A DNA stretch of 64,000 nucleotides, taken from the NCBI GenBank assembly GCA_024696945.1, contig JAILGF010000071.1:62001-126000 (forward strand), in the 5' to 3' direction. Positions within the stretch are counted from its first letter, which is position 1; each line of letters begins with the position of its first letter. The DNA is from Lachnospiraceae bacterium. Its GTDB lineage: Bacteria; Bacillota; Clostridia; Lachnospirales; Lachnospiraceae. A program made the position numbers and the translations under genes. Of the stretch, positions 19,335-32,386 are shown piece by piece. The notes under the pieces are model-generated. The model did not search any database and was not told the DNA's origin. It saw only the letters and a list, made by a program, of their open reading frames with translations.

Positions 19335-19340
19335 GTGCTG

Positions 19341-22300
19341 ATGTTGATGAAAGGTATGAAACGGAAATTTGCGGCTGTTTTGGCAGGTATTATTCTGTCA
19401 TGTAATGTGCTGTGCATTTTTGAAAGAGAAGCTGATGCAAAGACCATTTCAGGAGTAAGCTATGATGAAATTGCCGTGAATCCTACCAATCAAGGTGACG
19501 GATTTTCATCATATCTTTATGACAATAAAAACGGACTTCCCACATCTGAGGCAAACGCGATCGCCGAAACCAGTGAAGGCTTTATCTGGATAGGCAGTTA
19601 CAGCGGTCTTATAAGATATGACGGCAATTCGTTTGAAAGGATGGATTCAACCAACGGTATTTCCAGTGTTGTAAGTCTTTTCGTGGATTCAAAGGACAGA
19701 TTATGGATAGGTACTAATGACAACGGTGTTGCCGTTATGGATAAGGGCGAATTTTTCATCTACGATCTTGAGCAGGGCTTGCGTTCTTCTTCAGTACGTT
19801 CGATTACCGAGGACAGTGAGGGAAATATATATATCGCTTCCACACATGGTTTGAATATGATCGGACAGGACATGGTCCTTAAGGACATTGACGAGGTTCA
19901 GCTTAACAACGAGTACATATGTGAGCTCCGTATGTCGGATGGCGGCACAATTTACGGCGAAACCCTCGACGGTGATATTTTTACCATAAAGAACGGAATA
20001 GTAACAATGTATCCCGGTAAATCCCTGGGGATAGACGAAGAAGTAAACTGTGTCCTCCCCGATCCGATAAACGAGGGATATGTTTATATCGGTTCGATAG
20101 AATCGACCATTTATCACGGGAAACTTGACGGAGAACTTACAGAGGTTGAAAGTATAGATGTTTCGCCTCTTAAATGTATTGCCTCCATAGAAATTTTTAA
20201 GAATCAGATATGGGCATGCGGCGATAACGGAATTTCTGTCGTAAATGAAAACGGAAAGTATTATCTTGATAACGTACAGCTCAATAATTCCGTGGAATAC
20301 ATGCTGGTAGATTACGAGGGGAATCTTTGGTTTACTTCATCAAGGCAGGGTATTATGAAAATAGTACCCAACCGTTTTACCAATCTCTTCGAAAAATACG
20401 GACTTGATACCGCGGTAGTTAATTCAACCTGCCTTTACTCCGACAAGCTTTTTATAGGAACGGACAACGGACTGGTGGTTGTCGATAGCGATGGAAAGGT
20501 TGAAGATATACCCATGACCTGTTTGGAACCCAGAAGCAAGTTTATCGGCTATACAAATCTTGTTGAACTTCTTGAGGGGTGCAGGATTAGATCCATAATA
20601 AAAGACTCCAAAGGCAGACTCCTGTTTTCTACATACAGCAACAGAGGCCTTGTGATCTTTGATGACGGCATGGTTGATTTTTATGATTATGACAGGGGGC
20701 TTCCGTCAAATAAGGTAAGGACTGTTTTCGAAAGAAGTGACGGAATAATCATGGTAGCCTGCAGCGGCGGCATGGCCATGATAGACAACGGAGAGATCAT
20801 CGAAATATATGACGAAGACTGGGGTCTCAATAATCCCGAGGTACTTTCCATTACCGAATCCGATAACAAGGATATGATAATAGGCTCGGACGGTAACGGA
20901 ATATATATAATCAACGGCCACAATGTAAGAAACCTTGGAAAGAAGGACGGTTTAAGCTCTGAGGTTGTAATGAGGATCAAGCGTGATCCCGAAAGGCATA
21001 TTTTCTGGATAGTTACTAGTAATTCAATCGGCTATATGACCGAGGACTACCAGATACATACCATAAAGAATTTCCCGTATTCTAACAATTTCGATATGTA
21101 CGAGAACAGTCAGGGCGAGATGTGGATACTGAGCAGCAACGGTATATATGTTATTCCGGTAACTGAACTGCTCGCCAATGAAGAGATCAACCCGGTGTAC
21201 TTCAGCATGTCAAACGGCCTTCCCTGTGTTGCGACAGCCAATTCATACAGCGATATGACATCAAACGGAATACTGTATATCGCAGGCACAACCGGTGTGG
21301 CAAAGGTGAATATCGAGGAAACCATGCTTGATATAAGCGAGATCAAGATGGCAGTTCCATATATCGAGGCTGACGGTGTATATGTATATCCTGATTCGGA
21401 AGGGAATTTTACGGTTCCCTCTTCGACAAACAGGCTTACCATATATAACTATATTTTTACATACTCGCTTGTAGATCCTAAGATTACTTACTGGCTTGAT
21501 GGATTTGACAAGGAATTTATTACTCTCAATCGTAAGGATATGGAGCCGGTAGTATATACGAATCTTGACGGCGGAACATATCATTTCATCATGATCCTTC
21601 AGGATGAGCTGGGAAAAGGGAACAAGCAGCTGGATATCACGATAGTCAAGACCAAGGCTTTTTATGAGATGGCCTGGTTCAGATTGCTTTTGGTTCTCGG
21701 AACGATTATTCTTATTGCGGGAGCTGTTGCATATATAGTCCGCCGCAAGACACTTACTCTTTCTAAGAAGAATGAGCAGAACCGGTTGTTCATCAATGAG
21801 ATGACACAGGCATTTGCGAAGACCATAGATATGAAGGATAAGTATACCAACGGTCATTCTCAGAGAGTTGCAGATTATACCGCAATGCTTACCAAGGAAC
21901 TCGGCTATGATGAGGAGACTGTTGAAAGATACAGAAACATCGCATTGCTGCATGATATAGGAAAGATTTCAATTCCTCCTGAGGTTCTTAATAAGGAAGG
22001 AAAACTTACGGATCAGGAGTTCAATATCATAAAATCGCATTCGGCTCAGGGTTATATGGCACTTAAGGACATAAGCATTATGCCTGAGCTTGCAGTAGGA
22101 GCCGGACAGCACCATGAACGTCCCGACGGAAAGGGATATCCTAAGGGACTTAAGGGTGACGAGATAGAGAGAGTTGCCCAGATAATCGCAGTAGCCGATA
22201 CATTTGATGCCATGTATTCTGACAGACCTTACAGAAAACGTATGAATTTTGAGAAGGCCGTTTCAATCATAAAGGAAGTATCGGGAACGCAGCTTACCGA

Positions 22301-22433
22301 GGATGTGGTTGATGCATTCTTGAGGATTGTCGACAGAGGAGGATTAAGAGCCGAGGATGACAACGGCGGAGGAAGTACCGAGGATATCGACAACATACAT
22401 AAGAAACAGGAAGCAAGCAAAAATAAAAAGTAA
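19341..22433 (+). CDS. Two-component-regulator-propeller sensor with C-terminal HD-GYP domain
   Basis: The 1030-residue protein begins with a signal-like hydrophobic stretch (KFAAVLAGIILSCNVLCIF). About 650 residues of Reg_prop beta-propeller repeats follow (for example GLPTSEANAIAETSEGFIWIGSYSGLIRYDG), then a Y_Y_Y-type Ig-like domain (about 715-768) and one transmembrane helix near 780-802. The cytoplasmic HD-GYP domain (about 825-1000) has ALLHDIGKISIP and the diagnostic HHERPDGKGYP. HD-GYP domains hydrolyse c-di-GMP. Joined to an outside propeller this is a one-component receptor-phosphodiesterase; the ligand, perhaps a glycan as for SusR-like propellers, is unknown. GTG 19335 is possible, but ATG 19341 sits 9 bases after GGAGGGG. 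Confidence 0.9.
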   Translation: MLMKGMKRKFAAVLAGIILSCNVLCIFEREADAKTISGVSYDEIAVNPTNQGDGFSSYLYDNKNGLPTSEANAIAETSEGFIWIGSYSGLIRYDGNSFERMDSTNGISSVVSLFVDSKDRLWIGTNDNGVAVMDKGEFFIYDLEQGLRSSSVRSITEDSEGNIYIASTHGLNMIGQDMVLKDIDEVQLNNEYICELRMSDGGTIYGETLDGDIFTIKNGIVTMYPGKSLGIDEEVNCVLPDPINEGYVYIGSIESTIYHGKLDGELTEVESIDVSPLKCIASIEIFKNQIWACGDNGISVVNENGKYYLDNVQLNNSVEYMLVDYEGNLWFTSSRQGIMKIVPNRFTNLFEKYGLDTAVVNSTCLYSDKLFIGTDNGLVVVDSDGKVEDIPMTCLEPRSKFIGYTNLVELLEGCRIRSIIKDSKGRLLFSTYSNRGLVIFDDGMVDFYDYDRGLPSNKVRTVFERSDGIIMVACSGGMAMIDNGEIIEIYDEDWGLNNPEVLSITESDNKDMIIGSDGNGIYIINGHNVRNLGKKDGLSSEVVMRIKRDPERHIFWIVTSNSIGYMTEDYQIHTIKNFPYSNNFDMYENSQGEMWILSSNGIYVIPVTELLANEEINPVYFSMSNGLPCVATANSYSDMTSNGILYIAGTTGVAKVNIEETMLDISEIKMAVPYIEADGVYVYPDSEGNFTVPSSTNRLTIYNYIFTYSLVDPKITYWLDGFDKEFITLNRKDMEPVVYTNLDGGTYHFIMILQDELGKGNKQLDITIVKTKAFYEMAWFRLLLVLGTIILIAGAVAYIVRRKTLTLSKKNEQNRLFINEMTQAFAKTIDMKDKYTNGHSQRVADYTAMLTKELGYDEETVERYRNIALLHDIGKISIPPEVLNKEGKLTDQEFNIIKSHSAQGYMALKDISIMPELAVGAGQHHERPDGKGYPKGLKGDEIERVAQIIAVADTFDAMYSDRPYRKRMNFEKAVSIIKEVSGTQLTEDVVDAFLRIVDRGGLRAEDDNGGGSTEDIDNIHKKQEASKNKK

Positions 22434-22457
22434 TTATATATAAGGAGATTTTCTGTC

Positions 22458-22532
22458 ATGCAATTGGGAATTGTAATTACATTTTCCACATTTTATATGT
22501 CTCCGAACCCCTACAAAGGTGCTTATAACTGA
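22458..22532 (+). other. Short ORF resembling the 5' end of ychF (possible integration scar)
   Basis: Behind AAGGAG (ten-base spacing) an ATG opens a 24-codon frame beginning MQLGIV. Intact ychF at 31289 begins MKLGIV, and the first 17 bases match at 15 positions. The likeness fades quickly afterwards. It may be the displaced native start region of ychF left at the far end of an inserted element, or chance. The first 12 coding bases plus flank contain CAATT-GGG-AATTG, a small inverted repeat. Confidence 0.4.
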
Positions 22533-22624
22533 TAAAATCGAGGTTTTGGACGTTTTTTCAAAACTCAATACACCTTCACATTTATTCTTAAAAACATTCG
22601 TTATTACTTAGAAGGCTAAAGAGG

Positions 22625-22648
22625 ATGTAACAGTAAATGTAACACCTG
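22625..22648 (+). repeat. Left copy of 24-bp direct repeat
   Basis: Identical over all 24 bases to 31202-31225. It consists of two 12-bp units, ATGTAACAGTAA then ATGTAACACCTG, so TGTAACA occurs twice at a 12-base step. A third TGTAACA lies at 22707-22713. Together they resemble arm-type binding sites of a tyrosine recombinase or iterons. Confidence 0.85.
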
Positions 22649-22817
22649 AAAAAAGCCCGAAAACAGTTGAATTTACTTGCCTTGACACCAGTTTTATGAA
22701 AAACGGTGTAACACACCACACAAAAATTAGCGTCTGCGTGAAAGCGTGGACGCTTTTTTGGTGAAAAATAACGAATACGCATCATGCAAAGTGGATACTG
22801 TTTTCTGTTTCTGTATA
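22649..22817. other. Non-coding left arm of the island with hairpins
   Basis: No gene is seen in this stretch or in 22533-22624. A hairpin at 22685-22709 pairs ACACC-(A)-GTTTT with AAAAC-GGTGT, and a terminator-like hairpin is listed separately at 22729-22759. GAGGTTTTG/CAAAACTC at 22540-22566 is a further weak hairpin to the left of the repeat. Confidence 0.45.
22729..22759 (+). terminator. Terminator upstream of the restriction operon
   Basis: AGCGTC pairs with GACGCT, extended inwards by wobble pairs to a GAAA loop, and is followed by a T6 run. It would insulate the restriction operon from transcription coming from the HD-GYP gene. Confidence 0.65.
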
Positions 22818-22847
22818 TTGACTTTATACATACGATAGATGTATAAT
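22818..22847 (+). promoter_or_regulatory. Promoter and palindromic operator of the RHH-hsdRMS operon
   Basis: TTGACT (22818-22823) and TATAAT (22842-22847) with an 18-base spacer form a strong promoter. Between and into the -10 box lies a perfect 8-bp inverted repeat, TTATACAT (22824-22831) N7 ATGTATAA (22839-22846). A protein bound there would block RNA polymerase. The small RHH protein encoded just downstream is the obvious candidate. Confidence 0.7.
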
Positions 22848-22889
22848 AGACATATAGTACAGTAATGCGCCAAAGAAAGAAGGTACAAA

Positions 22890-23045
22890 ATGAAGAAAAA
22901 AGTCACGATGTCACTTGATGAAGAAACAATAGAGAAATTGAAAGAGCTTGCGGAAGCAACTCACAGGAATGTGTCACAATGGGTGACAGAGAAAGTATGG
23001 GAAACGGTTAAAGAACAAGAAAAAAAGCAACCTAAGAAGGGATGA
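22890..23045 (+). CDS. Small ribbon-helix-helix (CopG/Arc-type) DNA-binding protein
   Basis: This 51-residue protein reads MKKKVTMSLDEETIEKL, then a helix ending in ATHRNVSQWVTEKVWE, then a Lys/Gln-rich tail. The beta strand KKVTMSLDEE, helix, turn and second helix NVSQWVTEKV match the RHH fold, which binds DNA as a dimer through the paired strands. The ATG follows AGAAGG. It is the first gene of the restriction operon (4-base gap to hsdR) and lies 42 bases after a promoter overlapped by a perfect palindrome, so autorepression and control of hsdRMS are inferred. No toxin partner of the usual small size lies next to it. Confidence 0.8.
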   Translation: MKKKVTMSLDEETIEKLKELAEATHRNVSQWVTEKVWETVKEQEKKQPKKG

Positions 23046-23049
23046 TACT

Positions 23050-25959
23050 ATGTCTAAAGTAAAATCCGAATATGAGGTCGAAACAATATTCATCGACCAG
23101 CTTGAAAATATCGGCTATCAGTATATTGATATGTCGAACTACGATGATGTGGTCGCAAACTTCCGTGAGCAGTTCTGCAAAGTGAATGAAAAAGCACTTA
23201 CAGAAGGTAAAGGTGCTGCGGAGCTGTCCGACAGCGAGTTTGAGAAGATTATGCTCCGTCTGGAGAATCACACGGTATATGAATCTGCAAAGATTCTCCG
23301 TGAGAAGTGGGTGCTGGAGCTTGACAACGGCAAGACCGTCTATGTGCAGTTCCTTACGGACGATATGGACAGAAACACCTATCAGGTCACGCATCAGGTT
23401 ACGATGGACAAGGCTCACAAGGACGATGTGGAGTACAAGAACCGCTATGATGTGACAATCCTTATCAACGGCTTGCCTCTGGTGCAGGTAGAGCTGAAGC
23501 GTTCCGGCGTGGAGCTGAATGAGGCGGTCAATCAAATCAACCGCTACCGTGCGTTCTCATTCAAGGGGCTGTTCCGGTACATTCAGATTTTCATAGTATC
23601 GAACAGCGTCCAGACTAAGTATTTCGCAAACGCCAATGAGCGTAAGGCAGACGGCACGGAGCAGCTCATTTTGAAATCCCTTGCATTCTACTGGACAGAC
23701 AGGGATAATGTCCGCATAAACCGTCTGGGCGAGTTTACGGATGATTTCCTTGACAAGTATTCCATCACGGAGATGCTGACGAAGTTCATGGTTATCAAGG
23801 AAACCGAGCCGGTCATCATGGTTATGCGCCCGTACCAGATTTATGCCGTCAAGGAATCTATGGAGCGTATCCTCGGCAGTAACCTGAACGGCTTTGTGTT
23901 CCATACTACCGGCAGCGGCAAGACGCTCACCAGCTACAAGCTCGCAAGCCTGCTCCGCGATAACCCGAATGTGGACAAGGTGTTCTTCCTGATTGACCGG
24001 AAAGACCTTGACGACCAGACTGTTGACGAATACAACAGCTTTGAGGAAGGCTGCGTGGACAATACTGACAGCACAAGACAGCTTGTAGAAGACCTGAAGG
24101 ACAGCAGCAAAACACTCGTTATCACTACCATTCAGAAAATGGCGAATGCCGTTAAGAGCGAACGCTACGCAAAGGCTATGGATGCCCTTGCAGATAAGAA
24201 GTGCGTGTTCATCATTGATGAATGCCACCGCTCGCAGTTCGGTAAGATGCACGGCGACATCAAGCGGCACTTCCGAAATGCAAATTACATCGGATTCACC
24301 GGTACGCCTATCTTCAAGGAGAACAAGGGCAGCAACAGCAGGACAACCGCTGATATGTTCTTCTCCGGCACGTTAGATGCGTGCATTCACCGCTACATGA
24401 TTAAGGAAGCTATCGCAGACGGCAATGTGCTGCGGTTCTCCGTTGAATATATGCGCTCTATTAACGCAAGCAGTGTCGGCATTGAGGGCTTTGACCCTGA
24501 TAAGATTGATGACCCTGATTACTGCAAGCGGATGAATGTCGATATTGACGGGTTGTATCATGACAAAGGACGTATTGCCATGATTGCCGAAAATATCCTT
24601 CAAACCCTTGACGCACATATCAAGCCGACCGGCAAGGACATCTATACAGCTCTGTTTGCAGTCGATAAGATTCAAACCCTCATGGATTACTACCATGTTT
24701 TCAAGGAGAAGAACGACAGGGGATACAAGATTTGCGCTATCTTTACCTTCCAGCCGAACGAAGACCTTTCTGAAGGGCAGGACGAGCATTCTGCACGGTA
24801 TCTTCAGGAGTGCATGGATGACTACAATACCATGTTCGGCACGAATTATGACCTGACAACCTTTGATGCCTACCGCAAGGACATTGCGAAACGTCTGAAG
24901 CAGAAAGACCTTCCGCAAGTAGACCTGCTTATCGTGGTGGATATGTTCCTGACCGGCTTTGACAGCAAGCCTACGAACACACTGTTCCTTGACAAGAACC
25001 TTATCTATCATTCACTTGTGCAAGCGTACAGCCGCACAAACCGTATTGATAAACCCACAAAGCAGTTCGGACAAATTGTTACCTACCGTAACATCAAGAA
25101 GGCACAGGATGCGGCTCTGAAGTTGTTCAGCGGCAGCGGAAACCCGAACGATTATCTGCTGGAGAGCTATGAATACTATGTTGCTGAATACCGCAAGCAG
25201 GTTGACCTTATCCGGAACATCTGTCCGACCGCTGCGGATTGCGGCAATCTTGTCGAAGAAGACAAGCAGAAGGAGTTCATCGTTATTTTCAGAGTGCTTG
25301 CGAAGGCTCTGGCTACCATGAAAACTTTTAGTAAGTTTGACTGGGAAGACCTCAACATTTTCATGGACGAGGAAGAATACACCGAATACAAGTCGTGGTA
25401 TCTGACCTTTTTTGACGAGCAGAAGGAAAAGCGCAAGAAGGGCATGAAGACCGCGCTTGCAGATATTGACTTCAGCATTGAGCTTGTCCGCACTGACAAA
25501 ATCAATGTGGTCTATGTGTTGAATCTGCTGAAGGAAATCAACCGCAATGACAAGGACGAGATGCAGCGGAGCATTGACCTGATTCTACGCGAGATTGACC
25601 GTTCCGATAACGAAAAGCTGCGCTACAAGTCGGGCATCATGAAAGCGTTTATCAATTCCCGCTTCTTTGACCTTGACCCTGACGAGGACATCATCAAGGA
25701 ATACGAGCAGTACGAGCGTGAGATGATGGAAGATAACATCAAGACCTTTGCTGCCGAGAACGGCATTCAGGTGGATTTCGTAGTCAATATCATGAATGAA
25801 TACTTTGTTGCAGAGGAAAATGTGACAAAAGAGCGTGTACGGCAGCAGTTGGTGGAGCGTGATGTGAAGCTCCCGCTTCTGGAGCAGACAAGGCTTATCA
25901 ACCGCATCATGGCGTATGTAAAGCAGATGTACGACATTTTCACAGCAGAAGGAGTTTGA
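23050..25959 (+). CDS. hsdR: Type I restriction enzyme, restriction/translocation subunit HsdR
   Basis: The 969-residue subunit cuts unmodified DNA after ATP-driven translocation. The N-terminal PD-(D/E)xK nuclease fits YDVTILINGLPLVQVELKRSG (about 138-157). The superfamily 2 helicase has Walker A TTGSGKT (about 286-292), DECH (about 390-393), GFTGTP, and later VDMFLTGFDSKPTN and QAYSRTNR. The C-terminal region should dock on the methyltransferase core. It appears full length. The ATG follows AAGAAGGG at the end of the RHH gene. Codon choice is unlike the core genes around it, in line with transfer. Confidence 0.95.
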   Translation: MSKVKSEYEVETIFIDQLENIGYQYIDMSNYDDVVANFREQFCKVNEKALTEGKGAAELSDSEFEKIMLRLENHTVYESAKILREKWVLELDNGKTVYVQFLTDDMDRNTYQVTHQVTMDKAHKDDVEYKNRYDVTILINGLPLVQVELKRSGVELNEAVNQINRYRAFSFKGLFRYIQIFIVSNSVQTKYFANANERKADGTEQLILKSLAFYWTDRDNVRINRLGEFTDDFLDKYSITEMLTKFMVIKETEPVIMVMRPYQIYAVKESMERILGSNLNGFVFHTTGSGKTLTSYKLASLLRDNPNVDKVFFLIDRKDLDDQTVDEYNSFEEGCVDNTDSTRQLVEDLKDSSKTLVITTIQKMANAVKSERYAKAMDALADKKCVFIIDECHRSQFGKMHGDIKRHFRNANYIGFTGTPIFKENKGSNSRTTADMFFSGTLDACIHRYMIKEAIADGNVLRFSVEYMRSINASSVGIEGFDPDKIDDPDYCKRMNVDIDGLYHDKGRIAMIAENILQTLDAHIKPTGKDIYTALFAVDKIQTLMDYYHVFKEKNDRGYKICAIFTFQPNEDLSEGQDEHSARYLQECMDDYNTMFGTNYDLTTFDAYRKDIAKRLKQKDLPQVDLLIVVDMFLTGFDSKPTNTLFLDKNLIYHSLVQAYSRTNRIDKPTKQFGQIVTYRNIKKAQDAALKLFSGSGNPNDYLLESYEYYVAEYRKQVDLIRNICPTAADCGNLVEEDKQKEFIVIFRVLAKALATMKTFSKFDWEDLNIFMDEEEYTEYKSWYLTFFDEQKEKRKKGMKTALADIDFSIELVRTDKINVVYVLNLLKEINRNDKDEMQRSIDLILREIDRSDNEKLRYKSGIMKAFINSRFFDLDPDEDIIKEYEQYEREMMEDNIKTFAAENGIQVDFVVNIMNEYFVAEENVTKERVRQQLVERDVKLPLLEQTRLINRIMAYVKQMYDIFTAEGV

Positions 25960-25961
25960 TT

Positions 25962-27509
25962 ATGTCAGATATAAGTGTAAAATCGCAGGAGCTTGCAAAG
26001 CAGCTCTGGGCTATCGCAAATGACCTGCGCGGCAGCATGGACGCTTCCAAGTTCAAGAACTACATCCTCGGTACGATTTTCTACCGCTACCTTTCAGAGC
26101 GTACCGAGAAGTATATGGACGAGATTCTGAAGAATGACGGCGTGACCTACCGCGAGGCTCTGGAGAACGAGGAACTGGCAGAAGCGGTCACGGAAATGAC
26201 TATCGACCATCTGGGCTATATCATTGAGCCGGACAATCTGTTCAATTCCCTGAATGCCAAAATCAAGGACGGCAGCTTCAGCATCGAAGATTATGAAAAG
26301 GCTATCAGCTCCCTTGTTGGTTCGACTATCGGCAAGGAGAGTGAGGCGGCTTTTGACAAGCTGTTCGATGATATGAACCTTCAGGACAAGGATTTGGGAA
26401 AGGAAGTATCCCAGAGAACGAAACTTATCAGCAAGGTCATTTCCAAAGTCTATGACATCGACTTCAACTTTGAGGATGCCGAATTTGATGTCCTCGGAAC
26501 GGCATACATGATTCTGATTGGTCTGTTTGCTTCAGATGCGGGTAAGAAGGGCGGCGAGTTCTTCACGCCTACAAAGATGTCGGAGCTTGTTGCAAGGCTC
26601 GCTACGCTCGGTCTGGATAGTGTAAAGAGCGCGTGTGACCCGTGTGCCGGTTCTGGCTCATTGCTGTTGGAAGTAAGACGGCATTGCCGTGAAAAACGTG
26701 TAGGACACTATTACGGGCAGGAAATGAACGGCACGACCTACAACCTGATGCGTCAGAATATGCTGATGCACGGCGTTCCATACAAAGAGTTCACTGTATT
26801 CAATGATGACACCATTGAGCATGACAACTTCGGTGAAAAGAAGTTTCAGGTACAGGTCGCAAATCCGCCGTACTCTGCCAAGTGGTCTGCGGATTCCAAG
26901 TTTGAGAGTGACCCGCGTTTCTCCAACTGCGGTGCGCTCGCTCCGAAGTCCTACGCCGATTTGATGTTCCTTGAACATATCGCCTATCATCTGGATAAGG
27001 ACGGCAGAGCTGCTGTTCTGCTCCCTCACGGCGTTCTGTTCAGAGGGAACAAGGAAGAAGCTATCCGCAGATACCTGATTGAGAATCAGAATGTCATTGA
27101 CGCTATCATCGGCTTGCCTGCAAACTGCTTCCACGGCACTTCTATCCCCGTATGCTGTATCGTTCTGAAGAAGAACAGGAACGGCAACAGCGGCAATATC
27201 TGGTTCTGTGACGCAAGCAAGTATTATACAGCAGGCAAGAATATGAATGAGCTTTCTGACGAGGATATTGACCGTATCGTGAACGCCTATGAACAGAGGG
27301 CAGAGATTGAAAAGTTCTCCCATATCGCAACGCTTGACGAAATCAGGGAGAACGGCTTTAACTGCAATATTCCTCGCTATGTCGATACCTTTGAGGAAGA
27401 AGCACCTATCGACATTCAGGCAGTCCGTGAGGAACTTGCGAACATCACAGAAAAGAAACAGGCGGCTATCGACAAGGTGAACGCAGGACTGAAACTGCTC
27501 GGATTGTGA
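25962..27509 (+). CDS. hsdM: Type I modification methyltransferase subunit HsdM
   Basis: The 515-residue N6-adenine methyltransferase subunit works in an M2S core with HsdS. The N-terminal helical domain (SQELAKQLWAIANDLRGSMDASKFKNYIL) precedes the SAM-binding motif DPCAGSGSLL (about 226) and the catalytic NPPYS (about 300). The C-terminal helices end in a Lys/Ala-rich coil likely to hold HsdS. An in-frame TTG at 25956 exists, but ATG 25962 lies seven bases after AAGGAG and is preferred. The start overlaps the hsdR end by context only (2-base gap), so translation is coupled. Confidence 0.95.
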   Translation: MSDISVKSQELAKQLWAIANDLRGSMDASKFKNYILGTIFYRYLSERTEKYMDEILKNDGVTYREALENEELAEAVTEMTIDHLGYIIEPDNLFNSLNAKIKDGSFSIEDYEKAISSLVGSTIGKESEAAFDKLFDDMNLQDKDLGKEVSQRTKLISKVISKVYDIDFNFEDAEFDVLGTAYMILIGLFASDAGKKGGEFFTPTKMSELVARLATLGLDSVKSACDPCAGSGSLLLEVRRHCREKRVGHYYGQEMNGTTYNLMRQNMLMHGVPYKEFTVFNDDTIEHDNFGEKKFQVQVANPPYSAKWSADSKFESDPRFSNCGALAPKSYADLMFLEHIAYHLDKDGRAAVLLPHGVLFRGNKEEAIRRYLIENQNVIDAIIGLPANCFHGTSIPVCCIVLKKNRNGNSGNIWFCDASKYYTAGKNMNELSDEDIDRIVNAYEQRAEIEKFSHIATLDEIRENGFNCNIPRYVDTFEEEAPIDIQAVREELANITEKKQAAIDKVNAGLKLLGL

Positions 27510-27517
27510 GGTGCGTT

Positions 27518-28753
27518 ATGTTAGTACCGAAATTGAGATTTAAGCGTGAGGACGGGACAGATTATCCAGAGTGGAAAGAAAAGGCACTTCAAGATTGTAC
27601 TCTGTTTATTAAGGACGGAACACATGGTACTCACAAGAATGCTAAAACAGGGTATTATCTTCTAAGTGCAAAAGATGTTTATGGTGGAATCATTCATAAA
27701 CCTAACGATTCAAGACTGATTTCGCAAGATGACTTTAATTCAATATATAAGCAGTATTCTTTAAGTGTTGGAGATGTCATACTAACTATTGTTGGAACTT
27801 TAGGAAGGACGGCGATTGTTACCGAAAATGATGTTAGTATTGCTTTTCAAAGAAGTGTGGCTATTATTCGTCCTAACAAAGAAACCAATAGTCGTTATCT
27901 CCAATATGTAATGGAAAGCAATCGTTTTCAAAATGAATTAGAGACAAGAAAAAGTAGAGGCGCACAAGCAGGAGTTTATCTTGGAACATTGTCTGAAATA
28001 TTCGTTCCTTCCCCTCACAAAGAAGAACAACAGAAAATTGCAGACTTTCTCTCCACTGTTGACGAAGTGATAGCACAGTCCGAAGCGGAAGTGCAGAACC
28101 TTGAACAGCAGAAGAAAGCGGCTATGCAGAAAATCTTTTCGCAAGAGGCTCGCTTTAAGCGTGAGGACGGAACGGAATATCCTGAATGGAAAATGGATAG
28201 TCTGAAAAACTTGTGCGATTATACAGATTACAGAGGCAAAACGCCGACCAAAACAGAAAGCGGCATTTTTTTAATCACAGCAAAAAACATCAAACAAGGA
28301 TATATTGATTACGACACATCAAAGGAATATATCGCAGAAAGTGACTATGACAATGTTATGCACAGAGGGCTTCCGCAAATAGGCGATGTGCTTATTACAA
28401 CCGAAGCACCTTGCGGAAATATCGCTCAAATAGACAGAGAAAATGTTGCATTAGCACAGAGGGTTATCAAATACCGAGGAAGGAAAGAAATTCTTTCAAA
28501 CGATTATCTCTGCTTTGCATTACAATCCGATTATTTTCAAGATGAATTAGACAAAAAAGCAACAGGCGGAACTGTTAAAGGAATCAAAGGCTCTGTTTTG
28601 CATACTTTAAGCATCTTTGTTCCCTGCCTTGAAGAACAGCGGAAAATCGCAGATTTCCTGTCTGCTTATGACGAAGCTATCAGCTACGCAAAGCAGGAGC
28701 TTGAACACTGGAAGCAGCTCAAAAAAGGGCTATTACAGCAGATGTTTGTGTGA
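27518..28753 (+). CDS. hsdS: Type I DNA specificity subunit HsdS
   Basis: The 411-residue protein has two target-recognition domains, each ended by a conserved helical spacer: first about 15-170 then EEQQKIADFLSTVDEVIAQSEAE, second about 225-375 then EEQRKIADFLSAYDEAISYAKQE. The lead-in RFKREDGTDYPEWK (about 7-20) recurs between the domains as RFKREDGTEYPEWK (about 213-226). It determines the bipartite site recognised by both cutting and methylation. ATG 27518 behind GAGGTG is preferred over GTG 27506. The domain interiors are AT-rich compared with hsdM, as expected if recognition domains are swapped by recombination. Confidence 0.93.
   Translation: MLVPKLRFKREDGTDYPEWKEKALQDCTLFIKDGTHGTHKNAKTGYYLLSAKDVYGGIIHKPNDSRLISQDDFNSIYKQYSLSVGDVILTIVGTLGRTAIVTENDVSIAFQRSVAIIRPNKETNSRYLQYVMESNRFQNELETRKSRGAQAGVYLGTLSEIFVPSPHKEEQQKIADFLSTVDEVIAQSEAEVQNLEQQKKAAMQKIFSQEARFKREDGTEYPEWKMDSLKNLCDYTDYRGKTPTKTESGIFLITAKNIKQGYIDYDTSKEYIAESDYDNVMHRGLPQIGDVLITTEAPCGNIAQIDRENVALAQRVIKYRGRKEILSNDYLCFALQSDYFQDELDKKATGGTVKGIKGSVLHTLSIFVPCLEEQRKIADFLSAYDEAISYAKQELEHWKQLKKGLLQQMFV
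27536..28192 (+). repeat. Direct repeat pair flanking the first HsdS recognition domain
   Basis: Bases 27536-27577 and 28151-28192 are near-identical 42-base segments encoding RFKREDGT(D/E)YPEWK. They bracket the first target-recognition domain and could serve as recombination sites for domain exchange. Confidence 0.75.
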
Positions 28754-28765
28754 AGGAAAATAGAT

Positions 28766-29350
28766 ATGATAAATGAAGGAAAACCAATAAAATTACAAGA
28801 AGCTCATGAGCTTTATTTTGAGAGTTCAGAAGTTTTCTCAGAGGCTTTACGAAATCAGCCTGATAAAAGCAAGGCTTTTTCCAGTTTACTAGAAAATGTG
28901 AAGTGGGGCTTGGAAGATATATTGAATGAGTATTCAGAATACGATTTCTCAAAGTTTCTAGCGATGATTGTTCGTGTGAATATGATATATGAATGTATTA
29001 GGGCTATTTTGGGAAATAAATTATGTAAAACCGATAATATGTTATATTTCAAATTTATCAGGGATACAATAAGCCATCCCAAAGAATTAAGTAATAGTGC
29101 TTATCAGCAAATGCCATATCAGCCGTATATGAAATATATTTTCGTTGATTTTAGAAATGTTGAACAAACCAAAAGGTACTTTGGATTTCCGAGTCTTATG
29201 AAGTGGTTGTTTGACGAAGAAGAAAATGAATTTGTTTTGCAAATGAATGACCACGATACTGGAGATTTGGTTTTCCTTGTTTGTCCATATTCAAAAATTT
29301 GGGGTTGCTTATACGATGTTATTAGGCAGTTAGTAGATAAAATTGGATAA
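28766..29350 (+). CDS. Uncharacterised helical protein, putative HEPN domain
   Basis: I do not recognise a named family. The 194-residue product is mostly helical, without signal peptide or transmembrane helix. Residues 96-106 read FKFIRDTISHP, giving R99-x4-H104 with Asp after the Arg. This fits the R-x4-6-H active-site motif of HEPN RNases common in abortive-infection and toxin-antitoxin modules; the motif is short, so the match is tentative. The gene is AT-rich, starts 12 bases after hsdS and probably shares its transcript. HEPN-type anticodon nucleases such as PrrC are known companions of type I systems, which makes a defence role plausible. Confidence 0.5.
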   Translation: MINEGKPIKLQEAHELYFESSEVFSEALRNQPDKSKAFSSLLENVKWGLEDILNEYSEYDFSKFLAMIVRVNMIYECIRAILGNKLCKTDNMLYFKFIRDTISHPKELSNSAYQQMPYQPYMKYIFVDFRNVEQTKRYFGFPSLMKWLFDEEENEFVLQMNDHDTGDLVFLVCPYSKIWGCLYDVIRQLVDKIG

Positions 29351-29425
29351 CAACATCCAATATTATACTCAGATTTGAAATAAGAGTTGAAACAGCAAAA
29401 AAGTATTCAAAGGATGGTGAACGAT

Positions 29426-30913
29426 ATGTACTACCTAATGAACAAGGATAATATCATTCTTATATTTAAGGCGAATCCTAAATCCGGATTGTCTGAAGAT
29501 GTTTCATTCTCCGTTATGAAGCAGGATGGATGTACCCCTTATGGCTTCCAAAGCATTACGGCATGGATAGAGAGCAGAAAGGCATCTAAGCATAATGCAC
29601 ATCTGAAGGACATTATGAAGCGTCTTGGATGTGATGACAATGAGGGCTTTATCAGGCTTACGCACGCTGTCGGGATAAACGATACCTTCTGGATTAAGAG
29701 CGATGATGAAGATGTGACTTGGAAGGATGTTTCATTGTATCAGAATCCTTTTTCAGAAGTTATCTCTCGGCTTGCATTTGAAGGAGCAGGTCTGTATGGA
29801 GAACGCTTTTCATCAACATCACCCGAACTGTCCTGCGAAGGTTCTTTCCGTAAGTGCTTCAGGAAGGAAAAGACTAAAGGCGAGTTCGGGAGCGATATAT
29901 TCCTGTATAAGCGCGGTGGAGAGCTTGGGAAAGGACTTGAACCGTATTGCGAGGTACTTGCTTCTGAAATAGCAAAGATAGTTGCTCCAGAGCTGCTTTC
30001 GGTAAAGTATGACTTGTGCTGGCTTCACGGCAGACTGGCATCAAAATGTAACGTGTTTACAAATGAAAATGTAGGATATGCTTCATATTCAAAGCTGAAT
30101 GATGCGAAATCATATACTTTCGATGATGTAAGGGAGTTCTTTACGAAAATAGGTTTGGAGCAGGGCTTCAGGGAGCTGTTGGTCGTGGATTCCCTGTGCT
30201 TCAATCAGGACAGGCACAGCGGCAATTACGGGGTTCTGTTTGATAATGATACGATGCAGATTATCGGGATGTCACCGGTATTTGACATGAACCTTTCCAT
30301 GCTGCCATATGTCGAGATGTCCGAATTTGAGCATATCGGGGACAAACTGTTCGGCTATGCTCCGAAGCTCGGAAACGATTTTACACGAATCGGACAGATT
30401 GCCATGAATGATTGTTTGCGTAACAGGCTGAAGGATATAACCGATTTCAGCTTCTCTTTCAGGGGTGACAGTAAATTCACGGAAGAAAGGGTCAAGCTCT
30501 TGGAAGAAATTGTCCGGAAGCAGGCAGCGGCAATTCTGTCAAATGAGGTACTTCAGACAAAGGATGTGTTCTTTTCACAGGAAGCCGTAATGACAGAAGA
30601 AAGAAAAGCACAGGCAGCAGAAGCAATCGCTCTGATGAACGAGTTTGATGCCCGCATTGAAGACATGAGCTTTAACGGGAACAGCTTTATCAGTGTGTGT
30701 GATGGCACGGATGCTGTTCAGCTCTATCTTGAAAATGAGTCATATCTGCTTACGGTGGATTTCCTTGAAAAGAAGGTCTTTGTGCAGCAGAACGCACAGG
30801 AAATCACGATAAAGAAGCTAAAGGAAGACGCTCCGGATTTCTATAAGGATGCTGATTCGGTTATTGCGGAACTTGCCGTATTTTTGAAAGAGAAAAACAT
30901 CGAGCCGTTCTGA
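29426..30913 (+). CDS. HipA-like Ser/Thr kinase fold protein
   Basis: The 495-residue protein has the HipA/CtkA kinase hallmarks: catalytic loop NQDRHSGNYG (about 259-268) with the DRH and Asn pair, then the metal-binding PVFDMNLSM (about 284-292). The upstream half holds YGFQSITAWIESRKASKHN and ISRLAFEG. HipA kinases phosphorylate aminoacyl-tRNA synthetases or other targets and cause growth arrest, usually held by a HipB antitoxin. No HipB-type helix-turn-helix gene is adjacent. The frame extends to a TTG at 29387, but ATG 29426 behind AGGATGGTG fits better. It follows the HEPN-like gene by about 75 bases and is closed by a terminator. Confidence 0.75.
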   Translation: MYYLMNKDNIILIFKANPKSGLSEDVSFSVMKQDGCTPYGFQSITAWIESRKASKHNAHLKDIMKRLGCDDNEGFIRLTHAVGINDTFWIKSDDEDVTWKDVSLYQNPFSEVISRLAFEGAGLYGERFSSTSPELSCEGSFRKCFRKEKTKGEFGSDIFLYKRGGELGKGLEPYCEVLASEIAKIVAPELLSVKYDLCWLHGRLASKCNVFTNENVGYASYSKLNDAKSYTFDDVREFFTKIGLEQGFRELLVVDSLCFNQDRHSGNYGVLFDNDTMQIIGMSPVFDMNLSMLPYVEMSEFEHIGDKLFGYAPKLGNDFTRIGQIAMNDCLRNRLKDITDFSFSFRGDSKFTEERVKLLEEIVRKQAAAILSNEVLQTKDVFFSQEAVMTEERKAQAAEAIALMNEFDARIEDMSFNGNSFISVCDGTDAVQLYLENESYLLTVDFLEKKVFVQQNAQEITIKKLKEDAPDFYKDADSVIAELAVFLKEKNIEPF

Positions 30914-30942
30914 TTTTCTACCTATATAAAATATTAAGATTG

Positions 30943-30980
30943 AATCCCCTTGTGAATATGCAGGGGGATTTATTCTTTTA
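30943..30980 (+). terminator. Terminator at the end of the defence genes
   Basis: AATCCCCT pairs with AGGGGGATT (one bulge) and is followed by TATTCTTTT. It ends the operon that starts at the RHH gene. Confidence 0.7.
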
Positions 30981-31078
30981 GAATCATTTTTCTGGATTAC
31001 GGTTTTTCGGATTTATACCTATTTTCACTTTTTTGAAAATTTATACCGGCGTTTTTGGTGTTTTTTCTGGCGGTGACA
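30981..31078. other. Non-coding right arm of the island
   Basis: AT-rich with no supportable gene. An ATTTTC/GAAAAT hairpin lies at about 31020-31039. The stretch from 30914 to 31288 otherwise holds only the terminator, promoter, repeat and hairpin listed separately. Confidence 0.4.
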
Positions 31079-31107
31079 TTGACTTTTATGAAAACTTCTG
31101 ATATTAT
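31079..31107 (+). promoter_or_regulatory. Outward promoter towards ychF
   Basis: TTGACT (31079-31084) and TATTAT (31102-31107) with a 17-base spacer point out of the island into ychF. This is likely the present promoter of ychF, supplied by the island's right end. Confidence 0.6.
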
Positions 31108-31201
31108 TTATCAGTTAGGTTGCTGCCGGAAGCAAAAATCACCGGAAAATGCGTATTTTAAGGCTAAAAACGGCATCAATTTGGTAAATAATTATAAGTA
31201 A

Positions 31202-31225
31202 ATGTAACAGTAAATGTAACACCTG
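31202..31225 (+). repeat. Right copy of 24-bp direct repeat
   Basis: Identical to 22625-22648; see the left copy. It ends 63 bases before the ychF start codon. Confidence 0.85.
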
Positions 31226-31242
31226 TAAAATTAGCAAATCTC

Positions 31243-31269
31243 GGAAAGCCTTGAAAATCAAGGGTTTCC
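31243..31269 (+). other. Hairpin in the ychF leader
   Basis: GGAAA-G-CCTTGA and TCAAGG-G-TTTCC form an 11-bp stem with one G-G mismatch around an AAA loop, just before the ychF ribosome-binding site GGGAGG. There is no T-run, so it is a leader or recombination-site structure rather than a terminator. Confidence 0.5.
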
Positions 31270-31288
31270 AGCGTGGGAGGAATATAAA

Positions 31289-32386
31289 ATGAAATTAGGA
31301 ATTGTGGGCCTGCCGAACGTAGGCAAAAGTACGCTTTTTAATTCGATTACCAAGGCGGGTGCCGAATCGGCAAACTACCCGTTCTGTACGATCAGCCCTA
31401 ATGTCGGAGTGGTAGCGGTACCGGACGAAAGGCTGGATGTCCTGACGGATATGTACAAATCCGAATCAAGAGTTCCTGCTGTGATCGAGTTTGTTGATAT
31501 AGCAGGTCTTGTAAAGGGAGCATCAAAGGGAGAGGGACTCGGCAATCAGTTCCTTTCACATATAAGGGAAGTAGATGCCATAGTACATGTGGTTAGATGC
31601 TTTGATGATTCAAATATCGTTCATGTTGACGGCAATGTCGATCCTGCCAGAGATATTGAGACCATCAACCTCGAACTTATATTTGCAGATCTTGAGGTCA
31701 TTGAAAAGAGAATGGCTAAGGGTGTCAAGGGAGCTGCAAACAATAAAACTCTCGCCAAAGAGGTTGAACTTTTAAAGAAGTTAAAGGAGCTTCTTGAGTC
31801 AGGAAAGCTTGCAAAGAACTACAAGACGGATGACGAAGAAGAACAGGCGATGTTCGATTCCTTTAATCTTTTAACCGCTAAGCCGGTCATATTTGCAGCA
31901 AATGTTAAGGAAGACGATCTTGCGGATGACGGAGCGTCAAACCCTTATGTACAGGCAGTCAGGGATTTCGCTGCTGAAGACGGTGACGGAGTATTTGTTG
32001 TAAGTGCTGAAATAGAGCAGGAGCTCTCCGAGCTTGAGGATGATGAGAAAAAGGCATTCTTGGAGGATCTCGGAGTTGAAAAATCGGGACTTGAGAAGCT
32101 TATAGTAGCATGCTATGATCTTTTGGGGCTCATGAGCTTCCTTACAGCAGGCCCTAAGGAGAGCAGAGCTTGGACAATAAAGAAGGGAACCAAGGCTCCC
32201 CAGGCAGCAGGAAAGATCCATTCAGATTTCGAAAGAGGCTTCATAAGAGCAGAAGTGGTGAACTATGATAATCTCGTTGCCTGCGGCGGTTACAATGCAG
32301 CAAAGGATAAAGGACTTGTACGTTCCGAAGGCAAGGAATACGTTGTTCAGGACGGTGACGTAATACTGTTTAGGTTTAATGTTTAA
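31289..32386 (+). CDS. ychF: Redox-regulated ATPase YchF (Obg-like)
   Basis: The 365-residue P-loop protein of the TRAFAC class binds ATP more than GTP and associates with ribosomes. The start MKLGIVGLPNVGKSTLFNS contains the Walker A; FVDIAGLVKGASKGEGLGNQFL is the switch region, and a coiled-coil hairpin spans roughly 130-190. The C-terminal TGS domain ends VVQDGDVILFRFNV. The length is typical. The ATG follows GGGAGGAATATAAA. It is intact although an island abuts its start codon; the promoter and ribosome-binding site come from the island side. Confidence 0.96.
   Translation: MKLGIVGLPNVGKSTLFNSITKAGAESANYPFCTISPNVGVVAVPDERLDVLTDMYKSESRVPAVIEFVDIAGLVKGASKGEGLGNQFLSHIREVDAIVHVVRCFDDSNIVHVDGNVDPARDIETINLELIFADLEVIEKRMAKGVKGAANNKTLAKEVELLKKLKELLESGKLAKNYKTDDEEEQAMFDSFNLLTAKPVIFAANVKEDDLADDGASNPYVQAVRDFAAEDGDGVFVVSAEIEQELSELEDDEKKAFLEDLGVEKSGLEKLIVACYDLLGLMSFLTAGPKESRAWTIKKGTKAPQAAGKIHSDFERGFIRAEVVNYDNLVACGGYNAAKDKGLVRSEGKEYVVQDGDVILFRFNV

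Follow-up and report, generated by a model that had tools for sequence, protein, structure and literature searches.

The locus considered here is an 8.8-kb island at the start of the conserved GTPase gene ychF in a Lachnospiraceae bacterium, and among its closest described counterparts are elements whose integration site is the 5' end of some conserved gene. According to the parts of the publication at hand, most dusA islands exchange the 5' end of the target gene for element sequence, such that the gene stays intact and a remnant of the former 5' end is left; promoter-like sequences are found before and after integration, and one island carries a type I hsdS gene (PMC4482086). The available portions of two further papers describe SXT/R391 integrative and conjugative elements (ICEs), which use a tyrosine integrase and the 5' end of prfC (PMC4542580, PMC8138268). 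Cis-mobilizable elements (CIMEs) have been defined, and their accretion with elements arriving at that site described, in a source likewise seen in part (PMC5704250). Concerning ychF, the accessible passages place pneumococcal satellite prophages in the intergenic region upstream of the gene (PMC10383233, PMC8637289, PMC6375853) and list YchF among the genes of a Staphylococcus aureus prophage group (PMC8460829).

The island lies in a window of 64,000 nucleotides, by which we mean the whole stretch analyzed (C44:62001-126000 of genome G000, an assembly of 232 contigs that is 86% complete); the closest named YchF records are 95% identical and stem from Lachnospiraceae assemblies, several of them rumen-derived. 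Between an HD-domain gene and ychF, the 8.8-kb stretch harbors six annotated genes, all on the plus strand and encoding, in this order, a 51-aa ribbon-helix-helix protein, HsdR, HsdM, HsdS, a 194-aa orphan protein, and a HipA-like protein. With the stranded ATG and the last base of the right-hand 8-bp core taken as its limits, the island spans positions 22458-31305 (Table 1). It is very probably an insertion into the 5' coding end of ychF, derived from a mobile element and bounded by attL and attR; this grading covers the insertion and not its present mobility. The evidence is that of sequence: the junctions, the empty site, the class of the right end, stranded starts elsewhere, and a search that found no recombinase.

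Junctions and empty site

An earlier note, made from the sequence alone, had described a left border with AAGGAG and an ATG resembling the ychF start, and a right border with an intact ychF behind a different ribosome-binding site, and both descriptions were confirmed. AAGGAG (22442-22447) is followed at 22458 by ATGCAATTGGGAATTGT, which is identical to the ychF start ATGAAATTAGGAATTGT (31289) at 15 of 17 bases, or 15 of 18 if the next base is included; the stranded ATG opens a 24-codon frame (MQLGIVITFSTFYMSPNPYKGAYN). On the right, the ribosome-binding site GGGAGG (31275-31280) differs from the left-hand AAGGAG, the leader reads GGGAGGAATATAAAATGAAATTAGG, and the ychF gene behind it is intact (365 aa). 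The edges themselves read AAGGAG...ATGCAATTGGGAATTGTAATTAC (left) and GGGAGGAATATAAAATGAAATTAGGAATTGTGGGC (right). First-order Markov simulations (200) predict 0.005 degenerate M[KQ]LGI[VI] starts per window; two are observed, at the two borders. The junction falls inside ychF codons 1-6, and the crossover would have occurred within or adjoining the 8-bp core GGAATTGT.

For the empty site, the own genome and 60 relatives were searched for YchF; 59 of these 61 genomes gave a match, weak paralogues counted, and 30 places (own plus 29 relatives) were examined as ychF loci. In six same-genus genomes (G003, G008, G012, G016, G019, and G022; loci L004 and L006-L010), the HD-domain gene aligns with the left flank of the window and leads straight into ychF, about 15-40 bp downstream by eye, with no island in between; this is the junction that the earlier note had proposed to look for in relatives. 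The best counterpart of the left edge is G008, with AAGGAGATTTT and a start encoding MQLGIV. Because the HD gene leads into ychF in these island-free relatives and G008 matches the left edge, we take the left edge to be native and the junction to lie within the first ychF codons. The six empty sites thus support insertion at the 5' coding end, and with them the note's central proposal that an island entered the ychF start and stranded the old one 8.8 kb upstream. G007 lacks the HD gene and has the PilZ-type gene in front of ychF. An element or remnant is present at ychF in 7 of the 29 relatives (G023, G025, G021, G036, G028, G026, and, less surely, G006); that of G021 is an element right end at a contig edge.

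Table 1. Features of the ychF island and its flanks (positions in the window).
Feature	Position	Strand	Remarks
HD-domain gene, chromosomal flank	19335..22433	+	Regulator-propeller repeats and HD_5/HD domain; Pfam PF07494, PF13487
Native ychF leader and first three codons, stranded at left end (attL side)	22434..22466	+	AAGGAG, ATGCAATTG; match to G008/L006 empty site (AAGGAGATTTT, MQLGIV start)
Left copy of 8-bp core GGAATTGT	22467..22474	+	Common to right copy; other elements also depart from the ychF sequence at codon 6
Putative left arm-type repeat ATGTAACAGTAAATGTAACACCTG	22625..22648	+	+167 from stranded ATG; exact 24-bp match to right end
Promoter-like site before cargo	22818..22847	+	TTGACT-18-TATAAT, consensus match only; 2 sites found vs 2.3 in shuffles
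51-aa ribbon-helix-helix protein	22890..23045	+	PF01402, PF19891; Arc-like PHROG
HsdR, type I restriction subunit	23050..25959	+	TIGR00348, PADLOC
HsdM, type I methyltransferase	25956..27509	+	TIGR00497
HsdS, type I specificity subunit	27506..28753	+	PF01420, two stretches
194-aa orphan protein	28766..29350	+	No family at E<=0.001 in Pfam, NCBIfam, PHROGs, PADLOC
HipA-like protein, 508 aa	29387..30913	+	Weak: PF07804 E 0.0075, CtkA E 0.007; PDC-M03A E 1.8e-12
Terminator-like hairpin after cargo	30941..30972	+	Consensus match only
Outward-facing promoter-like site, could drive ychF	31079..31107	+	TTGACT-17-TATTAT with TG, consensus match only; 5 sites in region vs 1.6 in shuffles
Putative right arm-type repeats	31197..31225	+	AGTAAATGTAAC twice in tandem, then ACCTG
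Palindrome GGAAAGCCTTGAAAATCAAGGGTTTCC	31243..31269	+	Similar to element right ends; inside nhmmer-matched stretch (25.6 bits, E 1.8e-7)
Element-supplied ribosome-binding site and ychF codons 1-3	31275..31297	+	Leader comparison with relatives and elements
ychF, intact, 365 aa	31289..32386	+	PF06071, PF01926
Right copy of core GGAATTGT	31298..31305	+	Common to left copy

Integrases and element ends at ychF

Tyrosine integrases directly upstream of ychF were first seen in G023 (same genus) and G025 (same family). With the G025 integrase as query against 397 genomes of the family, an even sample of a larger group, matches at E <= 1e-45 were obtained in 69 genomes, and 30 loci (L172-L201) were examined; a locus with 53% identity (G147:C6:59927) was not among them. 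ychF lies directly downstream of the integrase in 21 of the 30 loci listed, and in 21 of 26 among those with at least 49% identity. A tree of these integrases was drawn as a picture, without support values and without L187, a fragment. Among named genomes, an integrase adjoins ychF in one of 80 loci, that of Oribacterium sp. C9 (L079), at a contig edge; what is present there is the C-terminus of a ychF-associated integrase, with the last 58 residues 91% identical. A second, distant match in the named genomes (L094) lies downstream of ychF. In L194 (G279), the stop codon of the integrase gene seemingly overlaps the ychF start (ATGA), and the two genes may be coupled in translation. The same-group integrase of L177 (G063) is followed by the start ATGAAATTAGAAAGTGTGG, which is not that of ychF and hints at another target of a sister lineage.

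By eye, many elements have repeats of some 12 bp in tandem on the ychF side of the integrase; these are followed by a palindrome of the type GAAA-CC...AAATCAAGG-TTTT, a ribosome-binding site, and finally the ychF start. From 19 integrase-bearing right ends, the window excluded, a nucleotide profile was built (nhmmer) and applied to a set of 162 sequences from upstream of ychF, some of them duplicates. The window scored 25.6 bits (E 1.8e-7), while the best of 1782 controls (162 reversed, 1620 base-shuffled) reached 6.4 bits, and the seven element-free same-genus loci L004-L010 gave no match at E <= 10. Scores below about 10 bits were not counted as evidence, including the 8.7 bits of G006, which say little because loci without a known element reach 6.9-9.7. 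Judged by this profile, the right junction of the window is element-borne and belongs to the right-end class of the integrase elements.

The two ends of the island also share a 24-bp repeat (ATGTAACAGTAAATGTAACACCTG), identical in its two copies, which lie at +167 relative to the stranded start and at -87 relative to ychF, whereas the longest match in 500 shuffles of the ends was 14 bp. Repeats at comparable places were found in G278 (13 bp, +143/-74) and G406 (13 bp, +152/-66), each with its own sequence. We infer that these end repeats are arm-type integrase sites; a circular form of the island would then carry, by eye, the core AAATGAAATTA-GGAATTG-TAATTACATTT with near-perfect inverted arms. 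By core, arm repeats, and right-end model, both attL and attR are retained in the sequence of the island.

The earlier note had further proposed to search other Lachnospiraceae for islands bounded by such starts, and elements with a stranded MKLGIV start were indeed found. Nine elements were traced upstream as far as the sequence at hand reached: a stranded ychF start was present in three of them, G278 (about 9 kb), G194 (27.7 kb), and G093 (38.5 kb), in each of which the copy departs from the ychF sequence at codon 6 as it does in the window, and the other six had no left start within the stretch covered. Together with the window, these three show an intact ychF with an element-supplied start and the old start stranded at the opposite end. 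Across the 397 genomes, the left-junction pattern occurred in seven (G000, G093, G194, G277, G278, G302, and G406) and the reversed pattern in none; the left junctions of G406, G302, and G277 are at contig ends. No stranded start besides that of the window was found on either strand of the 20 first-round loci or on the one strand examined of the 80 named loci, longer stretches being needed here. The G194 element encodes conjugation functions (coupling protein, TrbL, PrgI, a MobA/VirD2-type relaxase, and ArdA), the frames of G093 resemble those of G194 (by eye, no Pfam scan), and the three genes scanned in G278 encode an ABC transporter, a permease, and a response regulator. In G302 and G406 (L235, L234), an element right end (29.9 and 25.3 bits) lies directly ahead of the stranded start, which suggests tandem accretion of elements at ychF; the left start of the window is not preceded by such an end.

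Mobility, cargo and effect on ychF

A site-specific, element-encoded tyrosine integrase, a feature of elements of the dusA and prfC kind, was not found in the window and is present beside ychF in relatives. Tyrosine recombinases (PF00589) gave nine matches in the assembly, none of them on contig C44. A search of the window for an integrase remnant found none, the best tblastn match with integrases of the group (E 0.012) lying outside the island, and no integration or transfer family was detected among the six annotated genes (22890-30913; Pfam, PADLOC, NCBIfam, PHROGs). Within the island's own genome, the G023 integrase has no relative closer than 30% identity; in IMG/VR and phage records, its best relatives among the matches listed are 43% and 34% identical. 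The 80 IMG/VR integrase loci listed contained no ychF start, and no free attP was found there. The arm repeat was matched in five of the 397 genomes, namely the own genome (twice, at both island ends) and four with two mismatches, and had no match in IMG/VR. The four mismatched hits were rejected, as they are in loci without a match to the G025 integrase or YchF and are coding-like by eye.

The earlier note's description of a recombinase-free island holds for this copy and needs amendment in that the island, by the sequence of its ends, is grouped with elements that carry a tyrosine integrase beside ychF. Since both ends are kept and no recombinase or transfer gene is present among the six annotated genes, a CIME-like working follows, and from its sequence the island is best read as being of the cis-mobilizable type. 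According to the mechanism we propose, a tyrosine integrase of the ychF group, not encoded in the island, would have recombined the first chromosomal ychF codons with a matching core on a circular element. The native leader and first codons would thereby have been left behind at the left end, and the right end of the element, with arm repeats, palindrome, ribosome-binding site, and first codons, would have become the new ychF start; YchF would have stayed intact, but its gene would have been moved away from the HD-domain gene neighborhood. As a CIME, the island would move only via the integrase of another ychF element or upon accretion of a second element beside it. Whether it is still able to move we consider about even.

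Loss of integrases at ychF is evident in relatives: G036 has a broken integrase adjoining the gene, G028 has kept a 23-residue integrase C-terminus plus the element right end, and G026 has an element right end with no integrase match in 18 kb upstream. The rpe-ychF interval of G028 (L036) holds frames that by eye look like a MerR regulator, an alcohol dehydrogenase, and a flavin reductase, and appears to be another island whose integrase is mostly lost.

The cargo presumably serves defense. GC3 amounts to 0.61-0.64 in hsdR/hsdM versus 0.40-0.46 in three flanking genes, and within the restriction operon (23050-28753) it is mosaic (hsdR 0.64, hsdM 0.61, hsdS 0.34). For the 194-aa orphan, no relative was found in the 396 other family genomes or in plasmids, its own genome being the sole match among the 397; a single-sequence fold was unusable (mean pLDDT 43). 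The protein contains RDTISH, which we take to resemble the Rx4-6H motif of HEPN RNases. No HipB-like gene was recognized among the annotated genes adjoining that of the HipA-like protein, which has a 50%-identical relative elsewhere in its own genome (G000:C29:1208-2506).

At the empty site, ychF closely follows the HD gene and is probably cotranscribed with it; the sequence of the island-bearing locus suggests that ychF is there probably transcribed from an element-borne promoter. Integration is thus predicted to rewire ychF expression, as for the pneumococcal satellite between dnaN and ychF, which, in the part of that paper at hand, alters the predicted -35 of ychF, with lower ychF expression in strains having the satellite fixed in place (PMC6375853). 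It is a tentative and rather doubtful extension that the ychF start serves in this family as a recurrent docking site at which unrelated cargo, including integrase-less defense islands with their matching end sites retained, is exchanged in trans through ychF-associated integrases and ychF expression is coupled to element status. If true, each insertion would control a conserved GTPase gene by swapping its promoter, leader, and first codons.

Alternatives and comparison with described systems

Several observations weigh against an insertion of the proposed kind. Five of the 26 closest integrase loci lack ychF downstream (L176, L177, L178, L184, and L195). The right-end profile misses the integrase-bearing L172 (2.9 bits) and L173 (no match), gives its own training row L174 a score of 0.9, and assigns 9.7 (L080), 8.8 (L107), and 6.9 (L104) bits to loci without a known element. 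For G194 and G093, a search for arms common to the two ends gave none (G277 is too short), and no integrase with the arm sequence of the window, hence no matching recombinase, was found in the 397 genomes or IMG/VR. The GC content of the island (0.434) equals that of its flanks (0.435 and 0.427), and the source assembly is fragmented (232 contigs), which leaves a small chance of misassembly. Finally, G006 has the HD gene, a right-end-like sequence (79% over 119 bp), and ychF without an island, and this could be the native state of its lineage. The earlier note had named island-free relatives with the right-hand leader as evidence against its proposal; G006 fits this partly, and the six other same-genus genomes do not. 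Because the short native leader is missing in G006 and the six other genomes have no right-end-like sequence, we read its arrangement as the probable remnant of an element.

The alternative closest to a CIME-like insertion is a decayed element: the same insertion, whose own integrase once stood beside the right end, was deleted, and left the island immobile. It overlaps the proposed reading, differing only in history and present mobility, and we place it just short of an even chance, given that decay at this very site is seen in G036, G028, and, as a right-end-like stretch, in G006; on the other hand, the window retains no integrase remnant, and the identity of the 24-bp arm repeat at both ends is as expected for recent or still-used ends. 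That the right-hand leader is instead the native ychF start of the lineage, with the MQLGIV stretch on the left being island-borne, is improbable. G006 would be the genome in favor of it, yet G006 lacks such a leader behind its HD gene, as after a deletion, while in six same-genus genomes a short leader follows the HD gene at the position of the window's left one, none of them matching the right-end model, and the right end of the window matches those of integrase-bearing elements. Defense genes often occur in islands without recombinases, and the core repeat alone measures only 8 bp, which leaves some room for a ychF-like start arising by coincidence or as a local duplicate, and for a defense island acquired by homologous recombination or transposition. 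Such an origin is nevertheless highly improbable, as a start of this type is expected 0.005 times per window and stands at the position that ychF occupies in relatives, elements with an integrase show the same anatomy, and both arms and right-end model match.

Reading the island as a CIME-like insertion at the ychF start, we consider its value to lie in pinpointing, for the mobile elements of this family, the integration site, its empty form, and a group of integrases, and in presenting integrase-less defense cargo with intact-looking ends at the same site, which makes it testable whether such islands ride as passengers of neighboring elements. The principle, that is 5'-end integration and integrase-less islands with ends, is already known. 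The earlier note's view of ychF as an undescribed target stands in part: pneumococcal satellites use the region upstream of the gene, while the ychF coding start was not found as an integration target in the open-licence literature searched, nor was a paper there that brings YchF, Lachnospiraceae, and an integrase together. As far as the available parts of those papers go, the pneumococcal satellites resemble the ychF elements in lying just upstream of ychF with int at the ychF-side end; they differ from the window island in being phage-like, in residing in Streptococcus, and in using an intergenic attB of 14 or 26 bp, whereas the junction here lies within the coding sequence.

CIMEs published so far are known mostly from gene 3' ends. 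The window island is likened to them from sequence alone, CIMEs being ICE-derived or derived from integrative and mobilizable elements, and mobilized. The likeness to the definition, as given in the portion of the source at hand, consists in retained attL and attR and in six annotated genes that include none for integration or transfer, and the arrangement in G302 and G406 is as accretion would give. With SXT/R391, again to the extent covered by the accessible text, the island shares 5'-end integration into a conserved gene; those elements are large and conjugative (79 to 110 kb), encode an integrase, use prfC, and reside in Vibrio and relatives. The dusA islands have a different target and their own integrase family, as opposed to ychF and no integrase in this copy, and share with the window island, by the passages available, the replacement of the 5' end, the intact gene, and the stranded remnant (PMC4482086).

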